The position numbers were made by a program, and so were the translations under genes. Shown in pieces: positions 9,240 through 31,948 of a stretch of DNA of 64,000 nt. The DNA is from Sinomonas cyclohexanicum (lineage in GTDB: Bacteria; Actinomycetota; Actinomycetes; Actinomycetales; Micrococcaceae), in contig NZ_AP024525.1 in NCBI RefSeq assembly GCF_020886775.1, positions 4,278,001 to 4,342,000 on the forward strand, written 5' to 3'. Below the pieces are notes generated by a model. That model saw nothing but the letters and a program-made list of their open reading frames with translations, did no database searches and had not been told where the DNA came from. Every line of letters starts with the position of its first letter. The first letter of the stretch is position 1.

Positions 9240-9980
9240 TCAGAAGAGAAGGGGTGCAAGCCGCGACGCCAGTGCGCGGGCCGATTCAGCGTGTTCGCAG
9301 ATGGAATCGAACCGCTCCGCGGATCCCGTGAGGCACACGGCCGCGCCCACGGATCCGCTGGGCCGTGTCACCGGAACCGCAAGACTGGCGGATCCCTCCT
9401 CCAGCTCATTGATTTCCACGGCCTCTCCCTTCGACCGAATCTCGGCGAGCTCCTCCTTGAGCCTCGCATGGTCGGCGATGGTGTGCCCGGTCACTCGCAC
9501 CAGCGGTCCACCGGGGAACAGAGACTCGCGTTCCTCCAGGTGCGCGAGCATCAGCTTCCCGGCCGCGGAGGCGTGGGGATTCCGCAGCATCTCGAACACC
9601 GATCGGACGGGATAATCCGGGTCCTCATCGGCAACCCTCAGAGCTGCGTTCCGGAACATGACAAGGTGCACAGCGAAGCGATTCCCCGCGCGGAACTTCT
9701 CTATCTCATTGCGGGCAGCCGTCGGCACCGTCGGCGGCGTCGCCGCGGTGATCAAGCCTGAGATGGCGTGGCCCAAAGCGAACCCTCGAAGGTCCGACGT
9801 GCGGGCGAGGAACTCATCGGCAACGAGCGAGTTGAGCACGCGATAGGCGGTCGCCTGCGCCATGTGGAGAGTGTCCGTGACCTCCTTGGCCGTTGTCCCC
9901 GTTCCGAATCGGGCCACGGTCTCAAGGACCCTGATCGCATTGACTGCAGCACTCGGCTTGGAATCCGACCGATAGCTCAC
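9240..9980 (-). CDS. IclR-family transcriptional regulator
   Basis: The protein has 246 residues from GTG 9980 with a GGGAGG Shine-Dalgarno. The N-terminal winged helix is AVNAIRVLETVARFGTGTTA then KEVTDTLHMAQATAYRVLNS, followed by the effector-binding domain (LMLAHLEERESLFPGGP, IRSKGEAVEINELEEGSASL, VPV). IclR proteins bind small organic acids or aromatic compounds and control adjacent catabolic genes. The start overlaps the permease stop by four bases, so it is made from the gap-permease-IclR transcript. It is a candidate regulator for that permease or for the whole RuMP island. Confidence 0.9.
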   Translation of the reverse strand: MSYRSDSKPSAAVNAIRVLETVARFGTGTTAKEVTDTLHMAQATAYRVLNSLVADEFLARTSDLRGFALGHAISGLITAATPPTVPTAARNEIEKFRAGNRFAVHLVMFRNAALRVADEDPDYPVRSVFEMLRNPHASAAGKLMLAHLEERESLFPGGPLVRVTGHTIADHARLKEELAEIRSKGEAVEINELEEGSASLAVPVTRPSGSVGAAVCLTGSAERFDSICEHAESARALASRLAPLLF

Positions 9981-11563
9981 AGGGGGGACCTCCCTTGAAA
10001 CAGATCCAATTCCCGGGTCTCGTCGTAGACTCCGACAGCTGCCAGACGCGCAGGAAACCGCAATCGAAGGAACAAGGTATAGAGAACGCTGGCCAGGATG
10101 ACAGCCCCATAGATGAACGCCTGGACGTGGCCCCCGCCAAACGGCACGGACAATGCCCCCACCAGCACGGCACCAATGGCCAGCGCCGCGACCACCCCCA
10201 ACGCCCAGTTCCTGCGGCTGCCCTCGCCTATCCGACGGAGAAAGAACGGCAGCGAGGCACTAGCAAGGACGTATGCCCCAAGATTCCCATAGGCGCCCAG
10301 CAGGAACAGGCCCACGAGTCCCTGCTCAGGGCTGGCCCCCGAGAGGATGATCACGACGGGAACGAGCGCGATCACGGGGATCAGAATCATGATCGCGACC
10401 CAGGGTGTCCGAAAACTCGGGTGGGTGCCCCCCACGATTCGTGGCACCACGCCCTCCCTGCCCATGCAGAAGAAGATCCGGGCGAGGGCATTGACGGAGG
10501 CGATCACACAGGCGAACCAGGATGCCGCAATTCCGAGGTCCAGCGCAGCAGCGACAAGCGGTGATCCACCGGAGAACAGGTCCGGCAACGTGGTGGAACC
10601 AGATGCGGCCCCAGGAGCCGCCTGCCTGAGAGGGCCTCCTTGGGCTGCCGCGGAGAACAGGTAGAGGACACCCGTGGCGAGCGGTGTCCAGGTGATGGCC
10701 CTCGGGATGCTGACGAACGGCTTGTGCGCCTCGCCTCCGAGCGTGGTCGTGCTCTCGAATCCCGTGAAGGCACTCACAGCCACCACGATGCCGACCCAGA
10801 AAGAATCCAGACCGCCATTCCAGGCGAAGACACTTCCAAGGTCCATGCTCCGCGCATTCAGCACGAAATAGAAAACCATGACGATGACGAGCAGTCCTAT
10901 TGCCACGGATTCCATCAGCAACATGAACCATGCGGATATCTGGATCCCCCTGACCATGAGGAAGCCGGCCACGCCTGCTACTGCCAGCACCACCACGGCC
11001 GAGAAGACCATGGGATCGTGCAGCGGAATCCCGAGATTGATCACGAGTTGACTGCCGTACGTGCCGACGGCGAGCAGGCTCGCCATGGCGACCAGGCCAT
11101 ATCCAAGCATGGCCGACCAGCCAGCGGTGATTGCCGCCAGCGGGCCGAGGCCCTTGGCGGTGTAGCTGTACAGCCCGCTGACGGCAGCCATGCGCTGGGT
11201 CATCGGCCGCAGACAGAAGGCCACCAAGACGATGACTGCCATCGCTGCGCCGAATGTCAGCACGAGATTCGCGGGGGTCGCCCCTGAGACAAGTCCGGGG
11301 ATGACACCCATCGCACCCGCCGGCGCCACAGCCGCCACGGCCTGCGCGAATACCGGCAGGAACGGAAGGCGTCGACGACGCAGGCCGTCCACCGGCGAGC
11401 GCGCGGCAATGAGGCCACGATCGTGATCTGACAAGGGAACCAACTCTCCTCGGACGGCCAAGTCTGACTTGCTTCGTAGCAAGCCAGAGGCAGACGAAGC
11501 AAGGGGTGACCAACCACAGGACACCCGGCCGCCTTCCGCAGGAGCCTCCTGCACGAGGCTCAC
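9977..11563 (-). CDS. APC-superfamily amino acid/amine permease
   Basis: The protein has up to 528 residues with about twelve hydrophobic segments, e.g. GAMGVIPGLVSGATPANLVL, and the conserved AFTGFESTTTLGGEA region of APC transporters. The first 60 or so residues are hydrophilic, so the true start may be downstream of 11563. Only five bases separate it from gap upstream and it overlaps the IclR gene downstream, so all three are probably one transcript. In this setting uptake of a primary amine or amino acid that feeds the amine oxidase is plausible. The substrate is not readable. Confidence 0.87.
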   Translation of the reverse strand: MSLVQEAPAEGGRVSCGWSPLASSASGLLRSKSDLAVRGELVPLSDHDRGLIAARSPVDGLRRRRLPFLPVFAQAVAAVAPAGAMGVIPGLVSGATPANLVLTFGAAMAVIVLVAFCLRPMTQRMAAVSGLYSYTAKGLGPLAAITAGWSAMLGYGLVAMASLLAVGTYGSQLVINLGIPLHDPMVFSAVVVLAVAGVAGFLMVRGIQISAWFMLLMESVAIGLLVIVMVFYFVLNARSMDLGSVFAWNGGLDSFWVGIVVAVSAFTGFESTTTLGGEAHKPFVSIPRAITWTPLATGVLYLFSAAAQGGPLRQAAPGAASGSTTLPDLFSGGSPLVAAALDLGIAASWFACVIASVNALARIFFCMGREGVVPRIVGGTHPSFRTPWVAIMILIPVIALVPVVIILSGASPEQGLVGLFLLGAYGNLGAYVLASASLPFFLRRIGEGSRRNWALGVVAALAIGAVLVGALSVPFGGGHVQAFIYGAVILASVLYTLFLRLRFPARLAAVGVYDETRELDLFQGRSPL

Positions 11564-11568
11564 GGGGT

Positions 11569-13047
11569 TCAGACGGTCAGCGCTTCGAGTTCGGAAACCT
11601 GCTCCAGCACCGGAACGGAGGGCAGGGTGATACCTGCCATCTGCTCCATCACCCGGATCACTTGGCAGCTGTATCCGAATTCGTTGTCGTACCAGACGTA
11701 GAGGACGAGATTCTTGCCGTGGGAGACCGTGGCAAGGCCATCCACCGAGCCGGTGCGCCGGGAGCCGATGAAGTCGGTGGACACCGCCTCAGGCGAGTCG
11801 ATGTAGTCGATCTGCTCGCGCAGTTCCGGCTGCAACGACGTCTCCCGCAGGTGTGCATTGACCTCATCCTTGGTGGTCGCGTCCTGCAGAGTCAGATTCA
11901 GGATGACCAGCGACACATCGGCCGTGGGAACCCGGATGGAGCTTCCCGTGAGCTTGCCGCGGAGCTCGGGCAGCGCCTTGGCGACGGCGCGTGCGGCTCC
12001 GGTCTCCGTGAGGACCATATTCAGGGCAGCGGAGCGGCCCCTGCGGTCGCCCTTGTGGAAGTTGTCGGTCAGGTTCTGGTCGTTGGTGAAGGAGTGGACC
12101 GTCTCCACATGGCCGTGGACGACGCCAAACCTGTCGTTGATGACTTTCAGGACCGGGGCAATCGCGTTCGTCGTGCACGAGGCGGCGCTCACTATCGTGT
12201 CCGAGTCACGGATGGTGCGGTGGTTGATGCCGAACACGATGTCCTTCAGGTCACCGCTTCCTGGTGCGGTCAGGAGAACACGGCGGACACCCTTGCTCTT
12301 GAGATGCTGCGACAGTCCCTCTGCATCACGCCAACGGCCGGTGTTGTCCACGACCAACGCGTCGTGGATCCCGTACGCCGTGTAGTCGACTGTGGCTGGA
12401 TCGTCTGAATAGATGACGTGGATCCGCACCCCGTTGGCGGTGATTGTGCTGTCCTCGGCGTCCACTGTGATCGTTCCCTGGAAGGGCCCATGGATCGAGT
12501 CGCGGCGCAGCAGGCTGGCGCGCTTCGCCAGATCGTTGACGGCGCCACGCCGGACCACAATGGCGCGCAGGCGCAGTCCCTGCCCAGTGCCTGCGGCCTC
12601 GATGAGGAGGCGCGCGACCAATCGGCCGATCCTGCCAAAACCGTAGAGCACGACGTCGGTGCCAGCTCGGGCGCCGACGTCCCTCGTCCCCGCCAGCTCG
12701 GCCAGCTCGAGCAGGAGGAATGCTTCCAGACCCAGCTCACCACCCGAGACGGCGAACTTCTGGTGGAGCTGCCCAATGTCGATCACGGCGGGGCCCAGAT
12801 CCAAGTCGGCCAGTATGCCCAGGAGCGGAAACGTGTCTTCAACGGGTAGCTCGGCTTTGCCCACACGGCGGGCAAAGCGGTGCGCCTTGAGGATGGCGGT
12901 AGCGGACTTGTTGATCAGGCTCCGACCGTGAATCGTGATCACCACGTTTTTTTCACGATGCAGCCGCCCGATCACTGGAATCATGGCCTCGGCGAGAGCC
13001 ACCCTGCCCATCCACGTATCAAGACAGGAATCTGGCGTCTGGCTCAT
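11569..13047 (-). CDS. gap: Glyceraldehyde-3-phosphate dehydrogenase, long (GapB-like) form
   Basis: The protein has 492 residues, about 150 longer than standard GapA, with an N-terminal helical extension before the Rossmann motif VVLYGFGRIGRLVARLLIEA. The catalytic motif is SAASCTTNAIAPVL, followed by HSFTNDQNLTDNFHKGDRRG, RSAALNM and WYDNEFGYSCQV. The long form resembles corynebacterial GapB, an NADP-using enzyme favouring gluconeogenesis. It interconverts glyceraldehyde-3-phosphate and 1,3-bisphosphoglycerate, the exit of the RuMP cycle. A copy of the island's shared upstream element lies 123-169 bases before the start. It probably heads the gap-permease-IclR transcript. Confidence 0.93.
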   Translation of the reverse strand: MSQTPDSCLDTWMGRVALAEAMIPVIGRLHREKNVVITIHGRSLINKSATAILKAHRFARRVGKAELPVEDTFPLLGILADLDLGPAVIDIGQLHQKFAVSGGELGLEAFLLLELAELAGTRDVGARAGTDVVLYGFGRIGRLVARLLIEAAGTGQGLRLRAIVVRRGAVNDLAKRASLLRRDSIHGPFQGTITVDAEDSTITANGVRIHVIYSDDPATVDYTAYGIHDALVVDNTGRWRDAEGLSQHLKSKGVRRVLLTAPGSGDLKDIVFGINHRTIRDSDTIVSAASCTTNAIAPVLKVINDRFGVVHGHVETVHSFTNDQNLTDNFHKGDRRGRSAALNMVLTETGAARAVAKALPELRGKLTGSSIRVPTADVSLVILNLTLQDATTKDEVNAHLRETSLQPELREQIDYIDSPEAVSTDFIGSRRTGSVDGLATVSHGKNLVLYVWYDNEFGYSCQVIRVMEQMAGITLPSVPVLEQVSELEALTV

Positions 13048-13254: not shown

Positions 13255-14280
13255 CTACCCAAAGAGGACTCGCACCTCGTCGTACCGGTGCCGGGGAACG
13301 GTCTTGAGCCTCCCCAGTGCGGCTCCCAGGCCGACGTGGACGATGTCCGTGCCGCTGAGCGAGACCATCGTCCCCCATCTGCGGTCGGCCACCGAGTCGA
13401 CCGCGGCCATCCCGAGCCGCGTGGCTAGGACCCGGTCAAAGGCCGTCGGGACCCCGCCCCGCTGGATGTGGCCCAGGATCGTGGCGCGCGTCTCGATGCC
13501 GGTGTAGGCCTCGATCTCGGGGGCGAGCTGCTCGGCGATACCACCGAGACGCGGACGGCCGAACGTGTCGAGACCACGCTCCGAATATGGACTATCCATA
13601 CCCTCGGGGACGAAGCCTTCCGCCACGACGACCAGCGGGGCCCTGCCCCGGTCGTGGGCGAGCTTGACCCAGCCGGCGATCTCGTCGATGCTCACTCGCC
13701 GCTCGGGGATGAGGATCGCATGGGCGCCCGAGGCCATGCCAGCGTGCAGGGCAATCCACCCGACGTGGCGGCCCATGACCTCGGCGATCATGCAGCGGTG
13801 GTGCGACTCGCCGGTGGTCCGGAGCCGGTCGATCGCCTCGGTCGCAATCTCCACAGCGGTGTCGAACCCGAACGTGTAGTCAGTCGCGTCGAGGTCGTTG
13901 TCCACCGTCTTGGGAACCCCGACGATCTTGATCCCGGCCTCCATGAGGCGCTTCGCCGCGGCGAGGGTGCCCTCCCCGCCGATAGCGATCATCGCGTCGA
14001 TCCCCAGTCGGCCCATGTGGTCTTTGATGACCTCCGGGCCGCCCCCATCCTCGAACGGATTGGTACGGGAGGTGCCGAGGATGGTGCCTCCCTGCTTGGC
14101 GATGCCCCTCACCGCGGTACGGGGGAGATCGACGACGTCGCCCTCGATGACCCCCCGCCAGCCGTCACGGTACCCAACTAGCTCCAGGCCGTAGGTAGCG
14201 GTCCCCTTGAGGACGGCGCCGCGGATCACGGCGTTGAGGCCAGGGCAGTCGCCGCCGGACGTGAGGATGCCGATCTTCAT
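13255..14280 (-). CDS. pfkA: 6-phosphofructokinase
   Basis: The protein has 341 residues and starts MKIGILTSGGDCPGLNAVIR. GGEGT carries the glycine that marks ATP users at the position equivalent to E. coli Gly104. The substrate loop is PKTVDNDLDATDYTFGFDTA, with MGRHVGWIA and an RGGVPTAFDR near the end. The G104/K124 combination is that of the actinobacterial ATP-dependent group. It phosphorylates fructose-6-phosphate made by Hps/Phi so that aldolase can split it. It is the last gene of the tkt-to-pfk transcript and overlaps gnd by four bases. Confidence 0.93.
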   Translation of the reverse strand: MKIGILTSGGDCPGLNAVIRGAVLKGTATYGLELVGYRDGWRGVIEGDVVDLPRTAVRGIAKQGGTILGTSRTNPFEDGGGPEVIKDHMGRLGIDAMIAIGGEGTLAAAKRLMEAGIKIVGVPKTVDNDLDATDYTFGFDTAVEIATEAIDRLRTTGESHHRCMIAEVMGRHVGWIALHAGMASGAHAILIPERRVSIDEIAGWVKLAHDRGRAPLVVVAEGFVPEGMDSPYSERGLDTFGRPRLGGIAEQLAPEIEAYTGIETRATILGHIQRGGVPTAFDRVLATRLGMAAVDSVADRRWGTMVSLSGTDIVHVGLGAALGRLKTVPRHRYDEVRVLFG

Positions 14281-15161
14281 GGAGCCGGCCGGGTGGCGTG
14301 GCCGCCGAATTGATTGCGGAGAGCGGAGACCAACTTCATGCTGGGGGAATTGTCCTCTCGCGAGGCGAAACGGGCGAAGAGCGCAGCGGTGATCGCGGGC
14401 GCGGGAACCGAGCTCGCAACTGCTTCCTCAACGGTCCATCGGCCTTCCCCGGAATCCTCGACATAGGCGGCGACCGACGCCAGCTCAGGATCCTCGTCGA
14501 GGGCCTTCACTACGAGGTCCAGCAGCCACGACCGGACAACGGTGCCCTTCCGCCAGGCCCGGAACGTTCCCTGCATATCAGTCACGACGTCCTTGGCGGC
14601 CAACAGCTCGTAGCCCTCGGCGTAGGACTGCATCAGCCCGTACTCGATGCCGTTGTGGACCATCTTCGCGTAGTGCCCGGCGCCCACTCCACCCACATGG
14701 ACGAAGCTGTCCGCGCGGTCGCCCGGCGGGCGGAGTGCATCAAAGACCGGTAGGCAGCGCGCGATGTCTGCCGCGTCCCCGCCGGCCATCAGGCCATATC
14801 CATTCTCGAGACCCCAGATGCCGCCTGAAACGCCACAGTCCACGAAGCGAATGCCTTGCGATGCAAGGAACTCTGAGTGCTTCTTGTCTTCGGTAAAGCG
14901 CGAGTTCCCACCGTCTATCACCAAGTCATCAGTGCCGAGCTTCGCCCCGAGCTCCTTGATGACACCGTCGGTGATGCCACCGGCGGGAACCATCACCCAG
15001 ATCAGCCGTGGCGCCGGGACGTGGGCCAGCAACTCGTCGACTGACTGCACATCGCTGACCCGGACATCGCGGTCGAAGCCGCTGACTTCGATGCCTCCCC
15101 TGCGCAGGCGTTCGCGCATGTTGAACCCCATTTTGCCGAGGCCGATCATTCCAATGTGCAC
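14277..15161 (-). CDS. gnd: 6-phosphogluconate dehydrogenase, decarboxylating, short form
   Basis: The protein has 294 residues, the short type rather than the about 470-residue enzyme. MHIGMIGLGKMGFNMRERL is the dinucleotide motif, and the second strand ends GFDRD, whose acidic residue points to NAD rather than NADP (inference). DGGNSRFTEDKKHSEFL, SGGIWGLENGYGLMAGG and HVGGVGAGHYAKMVHNGIEY are the substrate and catalytic motifs with the conserved Lys and Asn. It converts 6-phosphogluconate to ribulose-5-phosphate, CO2 and a reduced cofactor, closing the oxidative RuMP cycle begun by Zwf. It overlaps pfkA by four bases. Confidence 0.92.
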   Translation of the reverse strand: MHIGMIGLGKMGFNMRERLRRGGIEVSGFDRDVRVSDVQSVDELLAHVPAPRLIWVMVPAGGITDGVIKELGAKLGTDDLVIDGGNSRFTEDKKHSEFLASQGIRFVDCGVSGGIWGLENGYGLMAGGDAADIARCLPVFDALRPPGDRADSFVHVGGVGAGHYAKMVHNGIEYGLMQSYAEGYELLAAKDVVTDMQGTFRAWRKGTVVRSWLLDLVVKALDEDPELASVAAYVEDSGEGRWTVEEAVASSVPAPAITAALFARFASREDNSPSMKLVSALRNQFGGHATRPAP

Positions 15162-15191: not shown

Positions 15192-16214
15192 CTACTTGAT
15201 GGTCTTGCCGGCGGAGCCGAGCTGCTGGGCGGCCTCGACGACTCGGGCGGCCATGCCGGCCTCGGCGGCCGCGCCCCAGACGCGGGGGTCGTAGGCCTTC
15301 TTGTTCCCGACCTCGCCGTCGACCTTGAGCACGCCGTCGTAGTTGGCGAACATGTGCCCGGCCACCGGGCGGGTGAACGCGTACTGGGTGTCCGTGTCGA
15401 TGTTCATCTTGACCACCCCGTACGAGACCGCGTCCGCGATCTCCTGCTCGGACGAGCCCGACCCGCCGTGGAACACCAGGTCGAACGGGCGGTCCCTGCC
15501 CACCCTCGCCCCGACCTGGGCCTGGATGTCCTTGAGGATCTCCGGGCGCAGCTTGACGTTGCCCGGCTTGTACACCCCGTGGACGTTGCCGAACGTCAGC
15601 GCCGTGATGTACCGGCCGTCCTCCCCCGTGCCCAGGGCCTCGACCGTGGCCAGGCCGTCCGCGACGGTGGAGTAGAGCTTGTCGTTGATCGCGTTCTCCA
15701 CCCCGTCCTCCTCCCCGCCCACGGCGCCGATCTCCACCTCGAGGATCATCTTCGCCGCGGCCGTGCGCGGCAGCAGCTCCTTGGCGATGCGCAGGTTCTC
15801 CTCGAGGGTCTCGGCCGAGCCGTCCCACATGTGCGAGTTGAACAGCGGGTCCCGGCCGGCCTTCACCTCCGCCTCCGAGGCGGCCAGCAGCGGCAGGACG
15901 AACCCGTCCAGCTTGTCCTTGGGGCAGTGGTCCGTGTGCAGGGCGATGTTCACCCCGTAGCCCCTGGCGACCTCCCGGGCGAACGCCGCGAAGCCCAGGG
16001 AGCCGATGACCATGTCCTTCACCGACGCACCCGACCAGTACGCCGCCCCGCCCGTGGAGACCTGGATGATGCCATCCGAGCCCGCCTCCGCGAAGCCGCG
16101 GACCGCAGCGTTCAGGGTCTGCGACGAGGTCACATTCACCGCAGGGAACGCGTACCCGCCGGCCTTGGCGGAGTCGATCATCTCGGCGTACTTCTCAGGG
16201 GTGGCGATAGGCAT
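15192..16214 (-). CDS. fbaA: Fructose-bisphosphate aldolase, class II
   Basis: The protein has 340 residues and starts MPIATPEKYAEMIDSAKAGG. Zinc ligands and catalytic residues are in ALHTDHCPKDKLDGFVLP, EVEIGAVGGEEDGVENAIND, LTFGNVHGVYKPGNVKLRPE, LVFHGGSGSSEQEI and VKMNIDTDTQYAFTRPV. It splits fructose-1,6-bisphosphate into dihydroxyacetone phosphate and glyceraldehyde-3-phosphate, the cleavage step of the FBP-aldolase variant of the RuMP cycle. It may also act on sedoheptulose bisphosphate. It sits mid-operon with short gaps on both sides. Confidence 0.95.
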   Translation of the reverse strand: MPIATPEKYAEMIDSAKAGGYAFPAVNVTSSQTLNAAVRGFAEAGSDGIIQVSTGGAAYWSGASVKDMVIGSLGFAAFAREVARGYGVNIALHTDHCPKDKLDGFVLPLLAASEAEVKAGRDPLFNSHMWDGSAETLEENLRIAKELLPRTAAAKMILEVEIGAVGGEEDGVENAINDKLYSTVADGLATVEALGTGEDGRYITALTFGNVHGVYKPGNVKLRPEILKDIQAQVGARVGRDRPFDLVFHGGSGSSEQEIADAVSYGVVKMNIDTDTQYAFTRPVAGHMFANYDGVLKVDGEVGNKKAYDPRVWGAAAEAGMAARVVEAAQQLGSAGKTIK

Positions 16215-16242: not shown

Positions 16243-16716
16243 CTACTGGACGACCTCTCCGGTGGTCTCGTAGGTGGCGATCTTGCCGATCCGGCGGATG
16301 TGGCGCGCGTCGTCGCTGAATGGTTCGGCCAGGAACGCCTCGATCAGCGCGGTGGCCTCCTCAACGGTGTGCTGGCGTCCGCCCACGGCCACGACGTTGG
16401 CGTCGTTGTGCTCACGGGCCAGCTTGGCCGTGTCCAAGTTCCAGGCCAGGGCCGCACGGATGCCCGTGACCTTGTTCGCGGCGATCTGCTCGCCGTTTCC
16501 CGAGCCGCCCAGCACGATCCCGAGCGCATCGACGCCCGCTGCCTGGTCTGCCGCGACCGCCCTCGCGGCGTTGATGCAGAACGAGGGGTAGTCGTCCTGG
16601 GGGTCGTAGGCAGCTGGTCCGTGGTCCACCATCTCGTAGCCCTTGGCTGAGAGGGCGGCGATGAGGTGGGAGCTGAGCTCCATGCCGGCGTGGTCGGTTC
16701 CGATGTGTACGCGCAT
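16243..16716 (-). CDS. rpiB: Ribose-5-phosphate isomerase B
   Basis: The protein has 157 residues from ATG 16714-16716, preceded by an AAGGA Shine-Dalgarno. The frame is open further upstream but that part overlaps rpe. MRVHIGTDHAGMELSSHLIA and DYPSFCINAARAVA then GIVLGGSGNGEQIAANKVTG are the RpiB/LacAB signatures; here the usual catalytic Cys of GTGIG-type motifs is replaced by Gly-Ser, as in actinobacterial RpiB. It interconverts ribose-5-phosphate and ribulose-5-phosphate to regenerate the formaldehyde acceptor. The rpe stop lies ten bases upstream. Confidence 0.92.
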   Translation of the reverse strand: MRVHIGTDHAGMELSSHLIAALSAKGYEMVDHGPAAYDPQDDYPSFCINAARAVAADQAAGVDALGIVLGGSGNGEQIAANKVTGIRAALAWNLDTAKLAREHNDANVVAVGGRQHTVEEATALIEAFLAEPFSDDARHIRRIGKIATYETTGEVVQ

Positions 16717-16726: not shown

Positions 16727-17413
16727 TCAGGCTGGTTGGTGAACGGCGTGCTGGGCATGGGCGCGGAGCGCCTCGATGGCTTCGGCGGGCGACGGCCTGC
16801 CGTAGACGGCCGATCCGGCGACGAAGACGTTGGCGCCTGCCTCGGCGGCCCGGATGATGGTCTCCTCGGTGATCCCGCCGTCGACCTGGATGGCGACATC
16901 GATCCCCGAGCCGTCGACCGCTTCCCGGGCGCGGCGGATCTTGGGCAGCGTGACGTCCAGGAAGGCCTGCCCGCCGAAGCCGGGCTCGACGGTCATGATC
17001 AGCAGCACGTCCAGTTCGGGAAGCATGTCCAGATACGGCTCCAATGGGGTGGCCGGGCGCAGTGCCATGCCGGCCTTGGACCCCCGGGCCCGCAGCTCCC
17101 GGGCCAGCTTGATGGGGGCATCGGACGCCTCGACGTGGAAGGTCACCGAGTCCAGTCCGAGGTCGGCATAGTGCGGCGCCCATCGATCCGCATGGGAGAT
17201 CATGAGGTGCGCGTCCAGAGGGACCGGGCTGACCTTCTGCAGCCGTTCGACGACGGGGACGCCGATGGTCAGGTTCGGCACGAAGTGGTTGTCCATGACG
17301 TCGACGTGCACGGCGTCGGCGCTGCCGATGCGGGCCAGTTCGGCCTCGAGGTTGGCGAAGTCGGCCGAGAGGATGCTGGGGTTGATGCAGCACTTCGGGG
17401 GTGAGGTCGGCAT
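16727..17413 (-). CDS. rpe: Ribulose-phosphate 3-epimerase
   Basis: The protein has 228 residues with [37 protein letters not shown] (metal-binding Asp and catalytic region), DAHLMIS, the [11 protein letters not shown] loop and [12 protein letters not shown] with the second catalytic Asp. It interconverts ribulose-5-phosphate and xylulose-5-phosphate, supplying transketolase and refilling the ribulose-5-phosphate used by Hps. It lies between tal and rpiB in the same operon. Confidence 0.95.
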
Positions 17414-22275: not shown

Positions 22276-22322
22276 AGTCGTAGAATCCTGAATCGAGTTT
22301 ATGCGGGCAGTAAGGGGTGCCA

Positions 22323-22973
22323 TCATGCGGCCATTGAGAAAGACATGATGGCCATGATGGCCGCACCGAGAGCCTCGAGGCCGTGTTCCAGACGGGTCAG
22401 GCCCTTCGGGACCGACGCACGACGGCGACGAATCAGCAGAACTATGAAGGCGGCCGCGGCCGCCGCAAAGAACGCTGTCAGGCCTATTGCCATCCCGGGC
22501 GAGGAGAGGGACGCAGCAGCCGTGGACGTGCCGGTGGCAGGTGCGCCCATCGAATGGTGCGAAGAGGACATGTGCATTTCGGCTGCTTCGACGGCCCCAG
22601 CAGTGGCGCCGAACCCGTGACCCATCATTGCGACCATGACCGCGGCGCCCGCCATGAGCAGACTGTGGTAAATGCATCTCATTCGATCGTGGCCGCTCGT
22701 GCACAGCGCCTTGATCTCCGGCCGGGCGATCGCCTGGACGAAGAACCACACGGCCGCGCCAAGGAGGACTGCTATCTGAGCAAGCATGGTGGACGAAGCG
22801 ACGTTCCACAGCATGGCGGCCATGACGAGGTCCATGACACCGTGGAGGCCCTTGTTGACCCGCTCGGCGATCCGACGCGACCTCACGGCCTGAAGGAAGT
22901 GGTAGCCCCCGCTGACCAGCAGGGCCACCGTCAGGCTCCACGAGATGAAGGGATTGTCGAACACGCTGATCAC
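22323..22973 (-). CDS. DUF5134-like integral membrane protein
   Basis: The protein has about 216 residues from GTG 22971-22973 (GTG 22964 is also possible). The frame is open upstream but that part is arginine-rich and overlaps nothing useful. It has about five membrane segments. A cytoplasmic or loop motif HDRMRCIYHSLLMAGAAVMV and a Met/His-rich loop (AEMHMSSSHHSMG) are seen in actinobacterial DUF5134 proteins; such a loop could bind copper. It lies between the permease and the LuxR regulator in the amine oxidase operon. A link to copper supply for the oxidase is a guess from the loop composition. Confidence 0.7.
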   Translation of the reverse strand: MISVFDNPFISWSLTVALLVSGGYHFLQAVRSRRIAERVNKGLHGVMDLVMAAMLWNVASSTMLAQIAVLLGAAVWFFVQAIARPEIKALCTSGHDRMRCIYHSLLMAGAAVMVAMMGHGFGATAGAVEAAEMHMSSSHHSMGAPATGTSTAAASLSSPGMAIGLTAFFAAAAAAFIVLLIRRRRASVPKGLTRLEHGLEALGAAIMAIMSFSMAA

Positions 22974-23052
22974 GCTTTCAATCGGTGAGGTTGGATGAGG
23001 CGGGGCCGGTCCCCCGATGCGGCCTACGACCGAACCGGGGGACCGACGGGTT

Positions 23053-24718
23053 CTATCGCGGGTCCTCCTCCCGCTCAAGTTCGCGCTCCAGCTCCAGTTC
23101 CATCTCGAGTTCATCGCGCAGGGTCAGCTTCCCGCGCGTCTCTTCCAGAGTTCTGGCCACGGCGAGCTCGACCGGGCTGAGATGGGTCACGTCCTGCTCA
23201 TCCAGGACGGGGCCGTGACCGTCGTCGGCCATTGCGACGTGACCGATCAGTTCGTACTTCACTGGGTTGGCCTTGCGCAGGTAGAGGGCGTAGCCCGCTC
23301 CGGCGACGAAGAGTCCTCCGGTGATCCAAGGGATCAGTTTGAAGAGCAGGGACGAGGCCGCCGGGCCGGCCGCCGTGTCCAGATTGGTGACCATCATGAT
23401 GGTGACGGCCAGCATTCCCACTCCGCCGACTATAGGAGCGACCTTGGCGCGCCAGACGTTCTCTTCGGGGTGATGCTTGCGGAGATATGAACACGGCCAC
23501 CATCGTGACGGTCTGCACGATCACGAGCGAGAACGTGCCGATCACAGCGAGGAGGATGAAGGCGTCCAGATACGGATCCTTCTGGAAGAACCAGAACCCC
23601 AGCATCCACAGAATCGCAGCCACCGTCTGCACGATTGAAGCGACAAAGGGAGACCCGTGCTTCCCATGGGTCTTCGCCAGCACGCTGGGGAAGATTCCTT
23701 CCCTCGCCAGCGAATACTGGTACCGCGACTGTGAGTTGTGGAAGGACATGGCGCAAGCGAAGGACCCGGTCATCATCAGCCACTCCATGACCATCACCCA
23801 CCCATGTCCCACGTAGACCTCGGTGGGGTGGAAGAACATGTCCAACGGATTCGCGCTCTGCGCCAAGGCGATGGCCTCGTGCGCACCATTGCCGGCAACT
23901 GACATCCACGACACCCAGGTGTAGAAGACGCCGACCCCCGTGACCGCGATGACCGTGGCAATGGGGATGATCTTCCGCGGGTTCTTCGACTCCTCGCCGT
24001 ACATGACCGTTGATTCGAAGCCAGTCCAGGACCAGAAGGCGATGAACATCGCAAGGCCTGGTGCGGCGACTTGTAGGCCATTTGGCAGGAACACGTTGAC
24101 GGGATTCAAGGTCTCGGGCATGAGCCCGTCGGGACCTCCGCCATGGAAGAGCACACCGAAGCCCATGATGGCCAGGATCGCGATCTCGGTGCCCAGGAGC
24201 ACTGTGAGGACCTTGGCCGCCAGGCTGATTTCGAAGTACGTCAGCACCTGGATGACGAGGAGACCGCCGATGGCGAAGATGATCCAATTGACGTCGATGC
24301 CCAATTGGTCCAGCAGGGCCATGTGGCCAAAGTACGCAAAGATGCTGATGATGCTGGCTTCAAAAACACTGTAGGCAAAGGTGACCATGAAGCCCGTGCC
24401 GAGGCCGAACACGCGTCCCAGGCCGCGGGAGATGAACCCATAGAAGGCCGCCGTCGAGGTCACGTACTTCGCCATCGTGACATAGCCCACTGCAAAGATG
24501 GTGAGGATCACCGTCGCCCAGATGTACGTTGCCGGCGTCCCGGTGCCGACCCCGAAGCCGACGGCGAAGGGTACGTTGCCACTCATCACGGTGATCGGCG
24601 CTGACGTGGCGACGGCCATGAACACCACATCCCACAGCCCGAGCGAGTTGGCCTTGAGTTTGCCCGGCTGGGAACCGCGCTTGGGGGAGGCGTTCTGCGC
24701 GGTGCTCGGCCGGCTCAT
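23053..24718 (-). pseudogene. APC-superfamily permease with a single-base frameshift
   Basis: The first about 410 residues (from MSRPSTAQNASPKRGSQPGK) form an APC transporter with SLGLWDVVFMAVATSAPITV and FWSWTGFESTVMYGEESKNP. Near 23488 the frame breaks: after VTMVAVF the sequence reads TTC-A-TAT, and skipping that A restores YLRKHHPEENVWRAKVAP and the last two membrane segments in the other frame, which ends at 23053. The ATG shares one base with the amine oxidase stop (TGATG), so it is coupled to it and probably imports the amine. Either a real lesion or a sequence error. If unrepaired the first frame ends at 23198. Confidence 0.8.
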
Positions 24719-26646
24719 CAGTCGGCTCCCATGCCGCAGTGGCCCGCGCCAGCGGCGCCGTTGTCCGCAGGCAGGTCGAGGGTGGGGTTCTCGTCGAAGA
24801 AGCCGTAGGGCTCGATGAAGAAGCCGGTCATCTGCTTGGGCATGACGGGCCAGTCCTCGATGCGCACGACGTGGTTGAGGCCGAACGAGTGCCACATCAC
24901 GATGTCCTCGTTCACGATCGACTCGTCGGCCGCGACGTAGGCCGGCAGCCCGTCGGTGCTCAGCCGTGCGCTCTGGTTCGGGTACTCGCCCGCCGGGTAC
25001 CGCTCGCCCTCTTCGTACTTGGAGACCCAGATGGTCTTCGTGGCGAACTCTGCTCGCTTGGTGACCCAGTTGTTCGGGTTCTTCTTCATCAGGACCGGGT
25101 CGGTGGGCATGATGCGGTAGGCCGTGTTCTCGCCGACCTTGTTCGTGCGCGATTCGCTGGCGACCATCCACCAGCGGTGGGCCAGCGGATTCGCCTCGCG
25201 GGCCGCGGCCTTCTCGGTCTCCAGGAGGGTGCGCTGGGCGTAGAACGGGCTGATCAGCGGGTCGTCGGTGTCTTCGGCGACGGTCTCGACCTCGAAGACG
25301 GAGTTCTTCTCGCCGTCCAGGGCCCAGTCCAGGCGCGCATTGAAGATGTGCTCATGGATCGGCGCGTAGAGGCCGTCGGTGTTGAGCAGCTGCCCGTACT
25401 TGGTGGTCTCCCCGGGGGCGATGCCTGCGGTGGAGAGGATGCCGGTGGCCTTGATCTCGAACTGGATGGTGCCGTCAAGGTGCAGGGTCCAGTAGAACGC
25501 GTACTCGTAGTTCGCGACCGTGACGACGAAGGAGACCACGAGCTTGCGCCCGCGGCGGGTCTGGGCGTCATTGGTGCGGAAGTCCCAGTGCTTCCACTCC
25601 ATGCCGTCGTCCTCCTCGTGGAGGCAGATGGCGTTGGTGATGGTGTACGGCTTGCCGAAGGAGTCCACGAGGTTCGCGTCGAAGTACTGGATGTCGCCGA
25701 GGCAGTCGCAGCCGAGCTCGAGCGAGTTCGTCATGTAGCCGAAGTTGTACTCGCCGGCGTCGAAGGCGTTCTTCTGCTGCTGCGAGCGGCCGGGGGCCCC
25801 GTAGGGCACGACCATCTCGGTCAGGCTCGCACGGTGCAGGATCGGGCGCAGCTCTCCCTTGTCGCGGAACCCGACCTGGTGCAGGACCAGGCCCTCGCGC
25901 GGGGTGAAGCCGATGTCGAAGGACCAGTTGAGCCAGTCGATGTGGTTGCCCTCGACGGTGAAGTTGCGGCCCTGCGGGAAGCTGATCTCGATCGGCTTGA
26001 TGTCCGTGCGTGCCGGTCCGACGAAGTCCGGGTGGTAGTTGTTCTTCTCGCGCGGGACGTGCAGGAAGCCGTCGTCCTCGATGCCGATGACCTCCTGCTT
26101 GTTCAGGTCGACCAGGACCGTGAAGTCCTCCATCGGGTGCGCGTACGGGTTGTCGTTCGGCTCGAGCCGGGTGAACATGAGCGCGCGCATGATGCGCTTT
26201 CCGCCCTGGTCCTCACCCCAGTAGCCGATGGACCACGGCTCGGCCGCCACCAGGGACATGTCCGTGATGCCGCGCTTGGCCAGCGCCTCCTGGACCAGCG
26301 GCGAGGCCACCACAGCGGCCTCGCACTCGGCGAACTCATCGGCCATGATCGGCGGCTGGGTCCCGGCCGGCAGGCCCACCCACTTGGTGATCGTCGAGGT
26401 CTCCAGATCGACCACCGCCTCGTACGCGAGGTCAGTGGCACGGTCGACCAGCACCGCCTCGGCCTCTCGGCCATACACGCCGGACTTCAGCGCGGACTTG
26501 GACGGCTCGCGAAGGGACACACTGCTGAACCGGAAGCTCTCCGAAGCACCAGGGCCGGACCTGATGATCGCCACCGCCCGCGTCAGCTCCTCACGCGAAA
26601 GCTGCTCGAACGGAGAAGTCATTGTTTCGTTCTTTTCAATCGTCAT
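24718..26646 (-). CDS. Copper-containing primary-amine oxidase
   Basis: The protein has 642 residues, close to the Arthrobacter globiformis enzyme (638). VANYEYAFYW contains the Asn-Tyr-Glu motif whose Tyr becomes topaquinone. The copper ligands are HEHIFN and a third His in LNHVVRIEDWPVMP. The catalytic base lies in NLVDSFGKP. ATG 26644-26646 with GAGGT upstream gives the usual length; an internal ATG at 26622 has no good ribosome site. It oxidises primary amines to aldehyde, ammonia and hydrogen peroxide. Beside hps/phi the likely substrate is methylamine, giving formaldehyde, although histamine, phenylethylamine or tyramine oxidases look alike. It heads the oxidase-permease-DUF5134-regulator unit. 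Confidence 0.93.
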   Translation of the reverse strand: MTIEKNETMTSPFEQLSREELTRAVAIIRSGPGASESFRFSSVSLREPSKSALKSGVYGREAEAVLVDRATDLAYEAVVDLETSTITKWVGLPAGTQPPIMADEFAECEAAVVASPLVQEALAKRGITDMSLVAAEPWSIGYWGEDQGGKRIMRALMFTRLEPNDNPYAHPMEDFTVLVDLNKQEVIGIEDDGFLHVPREKNNYHPDFVGPARTDIKPIEISFPQGRNFTVEGNHIDWLNWSFDIGFTPREGLVLHQVGFRDKGELRPILHRASLTEMVVPYGAPGRSQQQKNAFDAGEYNFGYMTNSLELGCDCLGDIQYFDANLVDSFGKPYTITNAICLHEEDDGMEWKHWDFRTNDAQTRRGRKLVVSFVVTVANYEYAFYWTLHLDGTIQFEIKATGILSTAGIAPGETTKYGQLLNTDGLYAPIHEHIFNARLDWALDGEKNSVFEVETVAEDTDDPLISPFYAQRTLLETEKAAAREANPLAHRWWMVASESRTNKVGENTAYRIMPTDPVLMKKNPNNWVTKRAEFATKTIWVSKYEEGERYPAGEYPNQSARLSTDGLPAYVAADESIVNEDIVMWHSFGLNHVVRIEDWPVMPKQMTGFFIEPYGFFDENPTLDLPADNGAAGAGHCGMGAD

Positions 26647-27470: not shown

Positions 27471-28463
27471 TTATACAGCGAGGAGAGAGACTCTCCCGCC
27501 GCGATGTGCCGGCCGTTCGCGGCCAATTCGGGCCGCCCTATCCGGTTGACGCGCGCTCAACAACCCAATGCTTCGCACTGCCTCACCGAAAACCGAGTCG
27601 GGCTCGAGGCGGCGCAGTTCCTCGGCCAGACAGTCATGCAGCGTGTAGTCCGACAGGCGGACCTGCTGCGGAAGGTGGCCGGGGATGGCGATCTCAGCGA
27701 GTCTGGGGCCCAGTCGAGAGAGCCGAGTGTCGCCTGAGGCCTGAGTCATCCGGACTCCCCAGATGCCAACGCCGGCAGGCCCCGGCTCGATGCTGACGGG
27801 GGCGTGCAGCCTCCATCTGAGCCACGCGGCGAGCAGGACAGTGCTGGGGCAATCAGGATCACCTTCAACGGCGACTGCCCCAACGGGCGTGCCGTCCCCC
27901 TGGTCGAGTGCGGCCGCGAGTTGGATGCGCCAGTTGGTCAGGCGGGTCCAGGCGAGGTCGGTGTCGCCGGGGCGGTAGGTCTCGCGCAGGTGGAACAGGG
28001 CCGCGACGGGGTCGGGTTCGTTGCCGGAGTCGGTGATGCGGCGGTGGGCGATGCAGCCGATGGAGGTCGCGGCGGCGTTCTCGGGTGCGCCGTGGGGCCA
28101 CCAGGCCACGATCGGGGCATCGGGGAGCAGGAGGGCGGCCACGAGGGACTCGCTCTCCTGGGCCAGGCGGCCGTAGCCGCGCAGGACGATGACCTCCGAG
28201 GCCCCGGCGTCCCCGCCGACGCGGATCTGCCCGTCGATCCGGTCCGTGGAGTCCCGGCCGGAGTCCACCAGGACGATGATCCGGCAGGGGTGCTCGCGGC
28301 TGGCCTCGTTCGCGGCCTCGATGGCCTCCTCCTCGAACCCGTGCCGGGTGATGACCACCAGGGTCAGCACCCGGCCCAGGGCCACGACCCCGCCGCGCTG
28401 GCGCAGGGCCGTGATCTCCTTGGAGATCTTCGAGGTCGTGGTGTTGGGCAGGTCGATGATCAT
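27471..28463 (-). CDS. opcA: Glucose-6-phosphate dehydrogenase assembly protein OpcA
   Basis: The protein has 330 residues and starts MIIDLPNTTTSKISKEITAL. The family features are the VITRHGFEEEAIEAANEASR region, VLVDSGRD, the PDAPIVAWWPHGAPENAAA segment and a C-terminal winged/beta region. OpcA is needed to assemble or activate G6PDH in cyanobacteria and actinobacteria. It overlaps zwf by four bases (ATGA), so the two are made together. Its presence with Zwf, rather than Zwf alone, argues that the oxidative RuMP cycle is meant to run at high flux. Confidence 0.93.
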   Translation of the reverse strand: MIIDLPNTTTSKISKEITALRQRGGVVALGRVLTLVVITRHGFEEEAIEAANEASREHPCRIIVLVDSGRDSTDRIDGQIRVGGDAGASEVIVLRGYGRLAQESESLVAALLLPDAPIVAWWPHGAPENAAATSIGCIAHRRITDSGNEPDPVAALFHLRETYRPGDTDLAWTRLTNWRIQLAAALDQGDGTPVGAVAVEGDPDCPSTVLLAAWLRWRLHAPVSIEPGPAGVGIWGVRMTQASGDTRLSRLGPRLAEIAIPGHLPQQVRLSDYTLHDCLAEELRRLEPDSVFGEAVRSIGLLSARQPDRAARIGRERPAHRGGRVSLLAV

Positions 28464-30016
28464 GGTCGCCTCCAGGAACGTCCGTCGCGGGCAAGGAGCT
28501 CATCGGCCGAGGACGGCCCCCAGGACCCCGGGGCGTACGGCTCGGGCTGGGTCCCGGTGCTGGCCCAGTAGTCCTCGAACGGGTCCAGGATCTTCCAGGA
28601 CAGCTCGACCTCCTCGTGCCGGGGGAACAGCGGCGGCTCGCCCAGCAGGACGTCCAGGATGAGCCGCTCGTACGCCTCCGGGGAGGACTCGGTGAAGGAG
28701 TGCCCGTAGCCGAAGTCCATCGACACGTCCCTGACCTCCATCTGGGTCCCCGGGACCTTGGAGCCGAACCGGATCGTGGCGCCCTCGTCCGGCTGGACCC
28801 GGATCACCACCGCGTTCTGGCCGAACTCGTCCTCGCCCTGGTCCTGGAACAGCAGGTTCGGGGCCCGCTTGAACACCACCGCGATCTCGGTCACCCGGCG
28901 CCCCAGCCGCTTCCCGGCCCGCAGGTAGAACGGCACCCCGGCCCAGCGGCGGGTGTTGATGTCCAGCCGGAGCGCCGCGTACGTCTCGGTCGTGGAGTCC
29001 GCCGGGATGCCCTCCTCCTGGAGGTAGCCCTGCACCAGCTCCCCGCCCTGCCACCCGCCGGTGAACTGCCCCCGGGCCGAATGCGTGGACAGGTCCGCCG
29101 GCAGCTTCACCGCGGCCAGGACCTTCTCCTTCTCCGCCCGCAGGTCATCGGCATTGAAGGAGATCGGCTCCTCCATCGCCGTCAGCGCCAGCAGCTGCAG
29201 CAGGTGGTTCTGGATCACGTCCCGCGCCGCCCCCACACCGTCGTAGTAGCCCGCCCGGCCCCCCGTGCCGATGTCCTCGGCCATCGTGATCTGCACATGG
29301 TCCACATAGTTCGCGTTCCACAGCGGCTCGAACAAAGTGTTCGCGAACCGCAGCGCCAGGATGTTCTGCACCGTCTCCTTGCCCAGATAGTGGTCGATCC
29401 GGAACACCGCATCCGCCGGGAACACCGACTCCACAATCTCGTTCAGCGCCCGCGCCGAGCCCAGATCATGCCCGAACGGCTTCTCGATCACCACCCGGCG
29501 CCACTTCCCCGGCTCCGCCTGGGCCAGCCCATGGGCCGAGAGCTGCCGGCACACCTGCTCGAACGCCTTGGGCGGGATCGAGAGGTAGAACGCATGGTTC
29601 CCCCGCGTCCCCCGCCTCTCATCCAACTCCTCCAGCGTGGCCTTGAGCGCCTCGAACGCCGCATCATCATCGAACGTGCCCTGCACGAACCGCACACCCT
29701 CATTCAGCTGCGCCCACACCGCCTCATCGAAAGGCGTCCGCGCATAGGTCCTCACAGACTCCTTGATGTCGGCCGGAAGATCCTCATCATCGCGGCTACG
29801 GCGGGCGAAGCCCACCAGCGCGAAGCTCGGCGGCAGCAGCCCCCGGTTCGCAAGGTCATACACAGCAGGCATCAGTTTCTTCCGGGCCAAGTCCCCGGAA
29901 ATGCCAAACAGGACCAGAGTGCACGGACCCGCCACCCGTGCAATTCTCCGATCGCGCAGGTCCCTCAGCGGACTGCGCCAGTACGTTACTTTCGGATCGG
30001 CGTAGGTAACAGACAT
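28460..30016 (-). CDS. zwf: Glucose-6-phosphate 1-dehydrogenase
   Basis: The protein has 518 residues. VLFGISGDLARKKLMPAVYD is the nucleotide-binding motif, IEKPFGHDLGSA and RIDHYLGKETVQNILALRFA are the substrate and catalytic region, and the C-terminal domain follows. It oxidises glucose-6-phosphate to 6-phosphogluconolactone with NADP or NAD, the first oxidative step of the dissimilatory RuMP cycle. Glucose-6-phosphate would come from fructose-6-phosphate by an isomerase outside the window. Start ATG 30014-30016. It is co-transcribed with phi, hps, two small ORFs and opcA. Confidence 0.95.
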   Translation of the reverse strand: MSVTYADPKVTYWRSPLRDLRDRRIARVAGPCTLVLFGISGDLARKKLMPAVYDLANRGLLPPSFALVGFARRSRDDEDLPADIKESVRTYARTPFDEAVWAQLNEGVRFVQGTFDDDAAFEALKATLEELDERRGTRGNHAFYLSIPPKAFEQVCRQLSAHGLAQAEPGKWRRVVIEKPFGHDLGSARALNEIVESVFPADAVFRIDHYLGKETVQNILALRFANTLFEPLWNANYVDHVQITMAEDIGTGGRAGYYDGVGAARDVIQNHLLQLLALTAMEEPISFNADDLRAEKEKVLAAVKLPADLSTHSARGQFTGGWQGGELVQGYLQEEGIPADSTTETYAALRLDINTRRWAGVPFYLRAGKRLGRRVTEIAVVFKRAPNLLFQDQGEDEFGQNAVVIRVQPDEGATIRFGSKVPGTQMEVRDVSMDFGYGHSFTESSPEAYERLILDVLLGEPPLFPRHEEVELSWKILDPFEDYWASTGTQPEPYAPGSWGPSSADELLARDGRSWRRP

Positions 30017-30031
30017 TCTTGCCTTCTAACC

Positions 30032-30525: not shown

Positions 30526-31149
30526 CTAGCGGATCGCGGCGCGGAGTTCCTTCGCCGCAAGCGCAGGATCGTCAGCACCGTAGATTCCACCGCCAACGAC
30601 TGCAACGTCGGCGCCCGCGCGCTGCACGGCGGCGATCGTGCTCAGGTTCACGCCGCCGGCAACCGAGAACGGAACGCGTGCCTCCTCGCCGGCGCTGAGC
30701 AGGCCGTTGAGGTCATAGCCGGGCTTCGCCTGCTCATCCAGACCGGCGTGCATCTCGACGAACTTCGCCCCGAGCGCACGCGCCTCCTTGGCGCGGGCAA
30801 CCTTGTCCGCGACGCTGATCATGTCCACGACGATGCCCTTGTTGTGCGCCTTGGCCGCCTTGACGGCTCCGGCAATGGTCGAATCGTCGGCGGTGCCGAG
30901 CACTGAAACCAGGTCAGCGCCGGCCTTGAACGCGATGTCGGCCTCGAGCTCGCCTGCGTCCATGGTCTTGAGGTCGGCGAAGACGATCTTGTCCGGGTGC
31001 GCGTTCTTGATCGCCGTGATGGCCGAGAGTCCCTCGCTCTTCACGAGCGGGGTGCCGAGCTCAATGATGTCCACGTACTCGGCGACCTTGTTGGCCAGCT
31101 CGAGGGCGTCTTCAGTGGTGAGGAGGTCGATAGCGACTTGGAGCTTCAT
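30526..31149 (-). CDS. hps: 3-hexulose-6-phosphate synthase
   Basis: The protein has 207 residues and starts MKLQVAIDLLTTEDALELAN. It has the OMP-decarboxylase-like barrel with Asp8, IIELGTPLVKSEG, the catalytic FADLKTMDAGELEADIAFKA, and the phosphate-binding SVAGGVN and VVGGGIYGADDP loops. It condenses formaldehyde with ribulose-5-phosphate to hexulose-6-phosphate, the fixation step of the RuMP pathway. It follows phi by 74 bases. The oxidase operon next door could supply the formaldehyde; detoxification alone is the other common role of hps/phi pairs. Confidence 0.95.
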   Translation of the reverse strand: MKLQVAIDLLTTEDALELANKVAEYVDIIELGTPLVKSEGLSAITAIKNAHPDKIVFADLKTMDAGELEADIAFKAGADLVSVLGTADDSTIAGAVKAAKAHNKGIVVDMISVADKVARAKEARALGAKFVEMHAGLDEQAKPGYDLNGLLSAGEEARVPFSVAGGVNLSTIAAVQRAGADVAVVGGGIYGADDPALAAKELRAAIR

Positions 31150-31223: not shown

Positions 31224-31814
31224 CTACTCGAGGTTGGCGTGGCGCAGCCACAGTTCTTCGGCAGGCGTTGCGTCGTTGTCCCACAGCGACTGGAAAACCG
31301 CCTCCGTGACAACAAAGAGCACCTGCTCGAAGAGCGACCCGGCGTACTGCTGGGAAACACTCGAACCGTGGTCGGTCTTCTGCGCAGCGGGAATGACCAC
31401 GAGCGCATCGGCGAGAGCCGCGAGCGGAGAGTCCGGGTTGGTCGTGAAGGCCGCAATACGAGCACCCACCTTCGCCGCCGTCTCCGCGGCCTTGACCACC
31501 CCCGACGTCGTGCCGGACCCAGAGGCCACCAAGAGCAGGTCGCCCGCACCGATGGCCGGAGTCGTGGTATCGCCCGCGACGTGGACGTTCATGCCCAGGT
31601 GCATGAGCCTCATGGCGGACATGCGGAGCACCAGCCCGCTCCTGCCGGCGCCGGCGACGAACACACGGCCGGGGCCCTCGAGGTAGCTCGCCAGGCGGGC
31701 CACCTGCTCCCCGTCGATCTTGGCCGCCGTATCGACGATCTCCTCCCTGACGAGGAACAGGCTGCGGACAATGTCACCTGCGGCGACGGTGGTACGCGTG
31801 GCTGTTGGATTCAC
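31224..31814 (-). CDS. phi: 6-phospho-3-hexuloisomerase
   Basis: The protein has 196 residues from GTG 31812-31814 with AAAGGGG just upstream. The frame is open to 31961 but that part is the regulatory element. It is a single SIS domain: VFVAGAGRSGLVLRMSAMRL, HVAGDTTTPAIGAGDLLLVA, SGSGTTSGVVKAAETAAKVG, then IAAFTTNPDSPLAALADALV and a C-terminal helix. It isomerises hexulose-6-phosphate to fructose-6-phosphate. It is the first gene of the phi-hps-zwf-opcA unit, under the shared element at 31904. Confidence 0.95.
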   Translation of the reverse strand: MNPTATRTTVAAGDIVRSLFLVREEIVDTAAKIDGEQVARLASYLEGPGRVFVAGAGRSGLVLRMSAMRLMHLGMNVHVAGDTTTPAIGAGDLLLVASGSGTTSGVVKAAETAAKVGARIAAFTTNPDSPLAALADALVVIPAAQKTDHGSSVSQQYAGSLFEQVLFVVTEAVFQSLWDNDATPAEELWLRHANLE

Positions 31815-31903
31815 GGTGTTGCCCCTTTCGTTTCGGTCCTCGGCCTTGAGCGGCCAACTGCATACCTTCCGGTTGACATCAATCATGTCGGGACGAAAGT
31901 GGG

Positions 31904-31948
31904 CGGGTAACGCTGTTTTCTGACGGTTCTGGCTACCCATTTGGATTG
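31904..31948. promoter_or_regulatory. Shared RuMP-island upstream element, copy 3 (phi)
   Basis: A 45 bp ungapped match to 20937-20981 (39 of 45 identical), including GGGTAACGCTGTTTTCTG, GGTTCTG and GGATTG. It lies 90-134 bases upstream of the phi start. On the gene strand CAGAACC is followed nine bases later by CAGAAAACAG, a possible direct repeat for an activator. Confidence 0.7.

Follow-up and report, generated by a model that had tools for sequence, protein, structure and literature searches.

Gene islands that join an amine oxidase to the ribulose monophosphate (RuMP) cycle are known from Arthrobacter 31Y, 35W, and MA-N2, strains isolated on methylamine. As described by McTaggart et al. 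(2015; PMC5023230), these islands have an amine oxidase (identified by comparison with the Arthrobacter P1 enzyme) clustered with RuMP genes, extra copies of these genes elsewhere in the genome, regulators, permeases, and signs of lateral transfer, which was proposed to have taken place between Arthrobacter and Mycobacterium; the authors also warn that Hps and Hpi alone are no proof of methylotrophy. We identified an island of this kind on the minus strand of Sinomonas cyclohexanicum, an actinobacterium of the soil type, from 9240 to about 31.8 kb of a 64,000-nucleotide stretch (the window; C1:4278001-4342000 of the complete 4.41-Mb genome). It is probably a laterally acquired, dedicated one-carbon island like those of methylamine-using Arthrobacter, most likely leading from a small amine such as methylamine through formaldehyde to sugar phosphates, with a zwf-opcA pair overwritten by the host. 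At the gene level it has the marks of a Gram-positive methylamine/RuMP island, namely hps and phi, a clustered oxidase, dedicated gene copies, and a sign of lateral acquisition; trimethylamine monooxygenase and eutQ, which the published table gives for those Arthrobacter strains, were not seen among the island open reading frames (ORFs) scanned. The preliminary description of this DNA called such a compact single-locus design unusual, which is too strong, since similar islands were published in 2015 and we found more in several genomes. The design is ordinary and its kind known; what is added here is a differing oxidase, the overwriting of zwf-opcA, and a related amine cassette with other partner genes on plasmid pTC2 (see below).

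The island comprises about 18 genes, of which 12 belong to the RuMP cycle and the pentose phosphate pathway. In the order of transcription these are phi (6-phospho-3-hexuloisomerase, 31224-31814; TIGR03127, 237 bits against a cut-off of 160), hps (3-hexulose-6-phosphate synthase, 30526-31149; TIGR03128, 260 bits against 200), zwf (28460-30016; TIGR00871), opcA (27471-28463; TIGR00534), the copper/topaquinone (TPQ) primary amine oxidase gene cao (24718-26646; PRK11504, 835 bits against 651), the APC permease gene apc2 (23198-24718), a DUF5134 gene (22323-23114; PF17197), a LuxR/GerE-type regulator gene (luxR, 21007-22326; GerE domain), tkt (18690-20843; TIGR00232), tal (17451-18578; TIGR00876), rpe (16727-17413; TIGR01163), rpiB (16243-16716; TIGR02133, from residue 62), fba (class II aldolase, 15192-16214; TIGR01520), gnd (short 6-phosphogluconate dehydrogenase, 14277-15161; TIGR00872 and PRK09599), pfk (phosphofructokinase, 13255-14280; TIGR02483), gap (long glyceraldehyde-3-phosphate dehydrogenase, 11569-13047; PRK08289, 766 bits against 431), a second APC permease gene, apc1 (9977-11563), and an IclR-family regulator gene (iclR, 9240-9980; IclR_C and HTH_IclR domains). 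Enzymes were called from NCBIfam profile matches of the island ORFs against curated cut-offs, which all island enzymes exceed except OpcA (E 9.8e-59, 199 bits, under a cut-off of 256); chance is not an issue, because the hps match alone has an E-value of 1.4e-77. Both permeases match amino acid transporter models only below cut-off, and their relatives in strain ERGS1:01 are annotated as APC family permeases. The motif GGEGT in the island pfk is presumably that of the ATP type. We place the start codons of phi (31814), hps (31149), cao (26646), apc2 (24718), luxR (22326), and rpiB (16716) downstream of the upstream ends of the ORFs, which lie, for example, at 31961 for phi, 31284 for hps, 26811 for cao, 22941 for luxR, and 16899 for rpiB. 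The gene set listed earlier (the twelve RuMP and pentose phosphate genes, a copper amine oxidase, two APC permeases, and two regulators, all on the minus strand) is therefore present in full, and the DUF5134 gene comes in addition to it.

All 12 RuMP and pentose phosphate genes have additional copies elsewhere in the complete genome: two more copies each of tkt (82% identity) and tal (72-73%), and further copies of zwf (95%), opcA (83%), fba (98-99%), pfk (86-87%), rpe (80-82%), gap (69%, plus one at 38%), gnd (76-77%, plus one at 33-35%), hps (79%), phi (65%), and rpiB (79% at C1:2414298, plus three at 30-35%). The second chromosomal set of glycolytic and pentose phosphate genes that the preliminary description had proposed to look for is thus there, and the island is a dedicated gene set; that it might hold the sole copies, and so be plain central metabolism, is ruled out by the same duplicates. 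The genome also encodes a distant second amine oxidase (40-43% identity), and in its housekeeping tkt-tal-zwf-opcA locus a weak match to phosphoglucose isomerase (E 8e-9) lies between tal and zwf. The second hps-phi pair lies at C1:93189-94431 with a divergent luxR, a minimal type common in relatives. A third tkt-tal pair (C1:4137001-4157000), sister to the housekeeping pair in trees, adjoins a 34-35% RpiB relative; as a guess, this is a sugar or polyol locus.

The island was probably laterally acquired, as indicated by its absence from the homologous site in congeners, by its transaldolase, and by its lower GC content at third codon positions (GC3), fba and cao excepted. Below, G-numbers denote genomes of the family-level set (G000 being that of the window) and L-numbers individual loci. 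Comparison of the island boundaries with related genomes, as suggested in the preliminary description, shows both flanks (window 3477-7696 and from 32044) to be collinear in the congeners G197 and G198, which lack the island and have 6.3 kb between the flanks, as against 24.3 kb in the window; in G197 this interval holds malate synthase, lactate permease, and a flavin adenine dinucleotide oxidase. In G121, the right flank and a single gene of the left flank are retained, separated by about 4.8 kb. The pnt region to the right of the island is found in 15 of 15 genomes of the genus; island genes are absent from all 11 pnt stretches fetched (the G135 stretch, which ends at a contig edge, is uninformative), and G162, of the same genus, has its own island about 165 kb from pnt. 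All nine island tal copies fall into one clade (support 98/97). In 2-kb bins, the GC content is 0.626-0.707 over 10001-32000, 0.707-0.749 over 1-8000, and 0.680-0.725 over 32001-42000; the GC3 of the measured island genes is 75-91% (74.9% in apc1), except for cao (93.5%) and fba (97.7%), compared to 93-98% in the housekeeping tkt, tal, zwf, and opcA and 90-93% in three flanking genes.

Some features of the surroundings may be added. We considered pntAB (32866-35824) as an NADPH/NADH-balancing part of the island and rejected it, since all 15 genomes of the genus have it, with or without the island. No tRNA was found in the window, and there is therefore no tRNA insertion site; a search of the window with Rfam at gathering scores returned the rRNA operon only (5S, 23S, and 16S genes on the minus strand at 42056-47510, some 10 kb away from the island), and a transposase gene (DDE_Tnp_1, 40234-41391) lies between island and operon. 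Among plasmid records, the 16S gene has its best match, at 95.3%, in Arthrobacter. In the congeners G150, G199, and G175 (L275, L276, and L279), an aldehyde dehydrogenase gene (83-85% identical to the one on pTC2) and a DUF779 gene are found near pnt, where the window has its island.

Comparison of the island zwf-opcA with the housekeeping pair revealed a tract of 1,844 bp (27901-29744) with 10 differences, no gaps, and sharp edges; outside it, the start of zwf (to about codon 87) and the 3′ part of opcA are divergent from the housekeeping pair. Because the tract is near-identical, sharp-edged, and divergent beyond its edges, we read it as gene conversion, a clear overwriting by the host housekeeping pair. 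We compared the longest identical run with 1000 shuffles in 33 gene pairs (the genes tested vary by genome, and p-values are uncorrected for their number). The longest runs are 446 nt in zwf and 347 nt in opcA, with shuffled maxima of 306 and 87, respectively, and runs exceed all 1000 shuffles in four pairs: zwf and opcA of the window, tal of G162 (one short tract, despite its place in the island tal clade), and zwf of ERGS1:01. Pairs with nominal p < 0.05 (G000 tkt, twice, G000 rpe, and G129 opcA) were left out of the tract count. Phylogenetically, the zwf tract clusters with the housekeeping copy of the same genome (100/99), nested in the genus (100/98), whereas the opening part of zwf branches off outside the remaining copies (fork 86/94, without a starred branch). 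The 3′ part of opcA has no close relative among the rows (55.5% at best) and sits on a very long branch. The zwf trees were built without the long-branched rows CryoY29 and G164.

The island fba is 98.4% identical in DNA to the host copy at C1:479436-480455 across the ORF with no internal edge, so that duplication and conversion cannot be told apart for this gene. It is thus the point in favor of new duplication into the island, rather than conversion, as the source of all the host-like genes (zwf-opcA and fba); for zwf-opcA the tract begins within zwf, ends within opcA, and is divergent beyond, as homologous replacement leaves it, which makes that explanation rather improbable. Near-identical pairs without edges are also found in G182 (zwf, opcA, and fba) and G129 (fba), and either conversion or duplication is possible for them. 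Counting both kinds, five of the seven island genomes tested (G000, G162, G182, G129, and ERGS1:01) have a tract or a near-identical pair, and the run test found neither in G151 and G098; G151 zwf, which forms a pair in the tree with the housekeeping copy of that genome but is 87% identical to it in DNA, is left out of this count. A host-to-island direction is supported by tree position for the window and for G182 zwf, nested in its genus, and appears less so for G129 fba (90/89); the fba rows G098b and G098c were placed in no group. In a literature search on gene conversion in methylotrophs, judged by titles among the matches listed, conversion of island genes was not found in print.

Several observations qualify or weigh against the reading of the locus as a methylamine island. 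First, the near-complete RuMP cycle with an oxidative branch that was described for the locus holds as far as its enzyme set goes, but the cycle is incomplete on its own: the island ORFs scanned gave no match to pgi, pgl, tpi, pgk, or glpX, and the first four of these would have to be supplied by other parts of the genome. Second, island and host tkt are not separated (a weak split, 74/88, with no clear island group); the G162 island tkt is nearer to the host copies of the genus, and that of G182 pairs with its own host copy (90/71). Third, the GC3 of cao is host-like, unlike that of apc1. Fourth, while both permease genes reported earlier are present, the frame of apc2 is broken near 23.49 kb relative to the open frame of its G162 relative, and its matches to G162, G182, and ERGS1:01 all split at this point. 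This break, like the sub-threshold score and divergent 3′ part of opcA, is what decay or inactivity of the island in this strain would predict; the remaining enzymes are above their cut-offs, however, apc1 is still there, and the break could be an assembly error, so we consider decay very improbable. By profile scores the island is intact, the exceptions being apc2 and opcA in its 3′ part.

The remaining counterpoints concern the oxidase. The cao product passes the curated family score, is encoded about 3.9 kb from hps, and, aligned with 1rjo (the Arthrobacter phenylethylamine oxidase), has NYEY, HEH (HxH), and the later histidine all in place; we take these to be the TPQ tyrosine in N-Y-[DE]-Y and the three copper histidines. 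In a tree of 52 rows, however, it does not group with the published methylamine oxidases of Arthrobacter: the rows of the window, G162, A. terricola, and Microbacterium Root53 form their own four-row clade (100/100), and MA-N2, 35W (both 54-58% identical to the window's enzyme), ERGS1:01, and G182 fall in a separate 18-row clade (100/100), of which 16 rows are near RuMP genes according to the labels assigned in this analysis. A. terricola has both types (L119 and L158), on short contigs. Since its clade is distinct from the MA-N2/35W type, the window's oxidase was either exchanged or acquired separately. Methylamine is its likely substrate, given hps-phi in the island, but unproven, given a clade other than the published one; the joining of a RuMP island to an amine oxidase, claimed from the start, thus stands, and the naming of methylamine is reduced to a probable assignment.

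The Root53 oxidase adjoins iclR-apc1 and an ammonium transporter gene (Amt), with no RuMP gene within the 16 kb examined, for which reason the window-type oxidase may serve nitrogen supply. The amine would then be a nitrogen source, with formaldehyde mainly disposed of via the oxidative cycle, for which zwf-opcA and gnd are at hand in the island; fba, pfk, tal, tkt, and gap indicate assimilation too, and nitrogen scavenging therefore seems an unlikely account of the locus. Paenarthrobacter aurescens TC1 has on its plasmid pTC2 a related cassette (iclR-apc1/cao) linked to an aldehyde dehydrogenase gene and to acsA, possibly an ethylamine-type back end, which suggests by analogy that other short amines may be possible. 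The island might then serve ethylamine, propylamine, or a mixture, with Hps and Phi only detoxifying formaldehyde from other sources; the divergent oxidase clade would fit, as would the many relatives (and the second locus of the window's genome) that keep phi-hps alone, often with luxR. Against this, a scan confined to island ORFs gave no match to aldehyde dehydrogenase or acsA, an acceptor-regeneration set is needless for mere detoxification, and G162 pairs the same oxidase type with RuMP genes; this possibility is therefore given little weight, and we retain methylamine-type RuMP assimilation. Among 33 pattern matches on viral contigs there was no relative of cao. In G182 (L110, 1132-5583), an oxidase gene is split by a transposase gene, with two further oxidase genes of its type no more than about 55 kb away.

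Among other loci, the plasmid of Arthrobacter sp. ERGS1:01 (NZ_CP012477.1) carries an almost complete island, sharing with the window a luxR-type gene, phi, hps, zwf (with a partial conversion tract, as in the window), opcA, iclR, apc1, cao, apc2, an annotated DUF5134 gene, rpe, rpiB, gnd, tal, and tkt. It differs in its plasmid location, in its oxidase of the MA-N2/35W clade, and in having no fba, pfk, or gap match in the 45 kb read. The pTC2 locus shares iclR-apc1, and cao followed by a permease gene (only 24-27% identical to apc2) and a DUF5134-like gene (about 31%), but has its aldehyde dehydrogenase and acsA in place of RuMP genes. Relatives of apc1 adjoin iclR in G162, ERGS1:01, and pTC2; the iclR relatives beside apc1 in G162 and ERGS1:01 are 68-70% identical to that of the window. 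The minimal phi-hps locus of Micrococcaceae shares Hps, Phi, and the LuxR-type regulator (often divergent), with no oxidase or regeneration genes seen beside the pair.

The sequence comparisons above establish the gene content, the duplicates, the place between conserved flanks, the clade membership, and the conversion tract; what we infer for substrate, flux, regulation, and growth is as follows. A short primary amine, most likely methylamine, would enter via the APC permeases and be converted by the copper/TPQ oxidase to formaldehyde, ammonia, and H2O2; Hps and Phi would fix the formaldehyde on ribulose 5-phosphate to give fructose 6-phosphate, the acceptor would be regenerated by Pfk, Fba, Tkt, Tal, Rpe, and RpiB, and carbon would be led out by Gap. 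Together with Pgi and Pgl encoded outside the island, Zwf/OpcA and Gnd would allow cyclic oxidation. Once in the host, zwf-opcA was for the most part overwritten through conversion by the housekeeping pair, and fba was either converted or copied anew from the host gene. The IclR and LuxR-type proteins would control uptake/oxidation and Hps/Phi. A luxR-type gene is divergent to phi in 29 stretches of relatives (in the window it is displaced from phi), and an imperfect palindrome, CYACCC-N4-GGGTRG, recurs in these luxR/phi intergenic stretches, exactly in 15 of the 29 and with at most two mismatches in 23, whereas 30 plain base shuffles, which do not keep dinucleotides, gave 0.0 and 1.8 on average; these 29 stretches, three of them shorter than 60 bases, are also the ones from which the pattern was derived. 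The window has a site at 31933-31948, 119 bp before phi, with two mismatches. It stays a candidate operator, because the 16 matches that the whole window holds at this stringency are no more than chance would give (15.5 expected).

Hps scored above cut-off in 39 of the 197 family genomes, and 39 stretches around hps were fetched from the 38 genomes other than that of the window. Many of these contain phi and hps only, often with a divergent luxR; extended sets occur in G162, G182, and G129, and partial ones in G151, G098, G164, G177, G096, and G113. A full-length oxidase of at least 54% identity is found only in G000, G162, and G182, with short pieces (53-68%) in G098, G056, G061, G103, and G105. 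We also scanned named genomes for oxidase relatives, covering the best 80 of 352. In 13 of these 80 loci, which represent 12 genomes, a RuMP gene other than zwf/opcA is located close to the oxidase; the genomes are Arthrobacter MA-N2 (gnd, gap, pfk, and also zwf), 35W (phi only), 18067, MYb23, and P2b, A. cavernae, A. agilis, Pseudarthrobacter NamE2, two Cryobacterium, and two metagenome-assembled genomes, of Mycolicibacterium and Micrococcaceae. At the other 67 loci, many of them short stretches, no RuMP gene was counted (zwf/opcA aside), although L123 has opcA, L182 a 34% pfk match, and L183 a 43% zwf match. G162 has two tandem hps genes (L065, 4398-6332), each 78% identical to the window hps.

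These results extend the methylamine-type RuMP islands to another Micrococcaceae genus. They also show that an oxidase of another type than the published one can stand in such an island, so that its substrate is to be assayed rather than assumed. It is an evenly balanced proposition that RuMP islands are modular and are fitted to the host after transfer, with tal and other one-carbon-cycle genes keeping a shared island ancestry, the oxidase module being exchangeable for a distant one, and enzymes in common with central metabolism (zwf, opcA, fba, and once part of tal) being repeatedly overwritten by host paralogs via gene conversion; if true, the same pathway would end up with host-tuned enzymes. 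With the conversion tracts it can be tested how a transferred pathway is adapted to a new host whose central metabolism it duplicates, which also bears on the engineering of RuMP methylotrophs.

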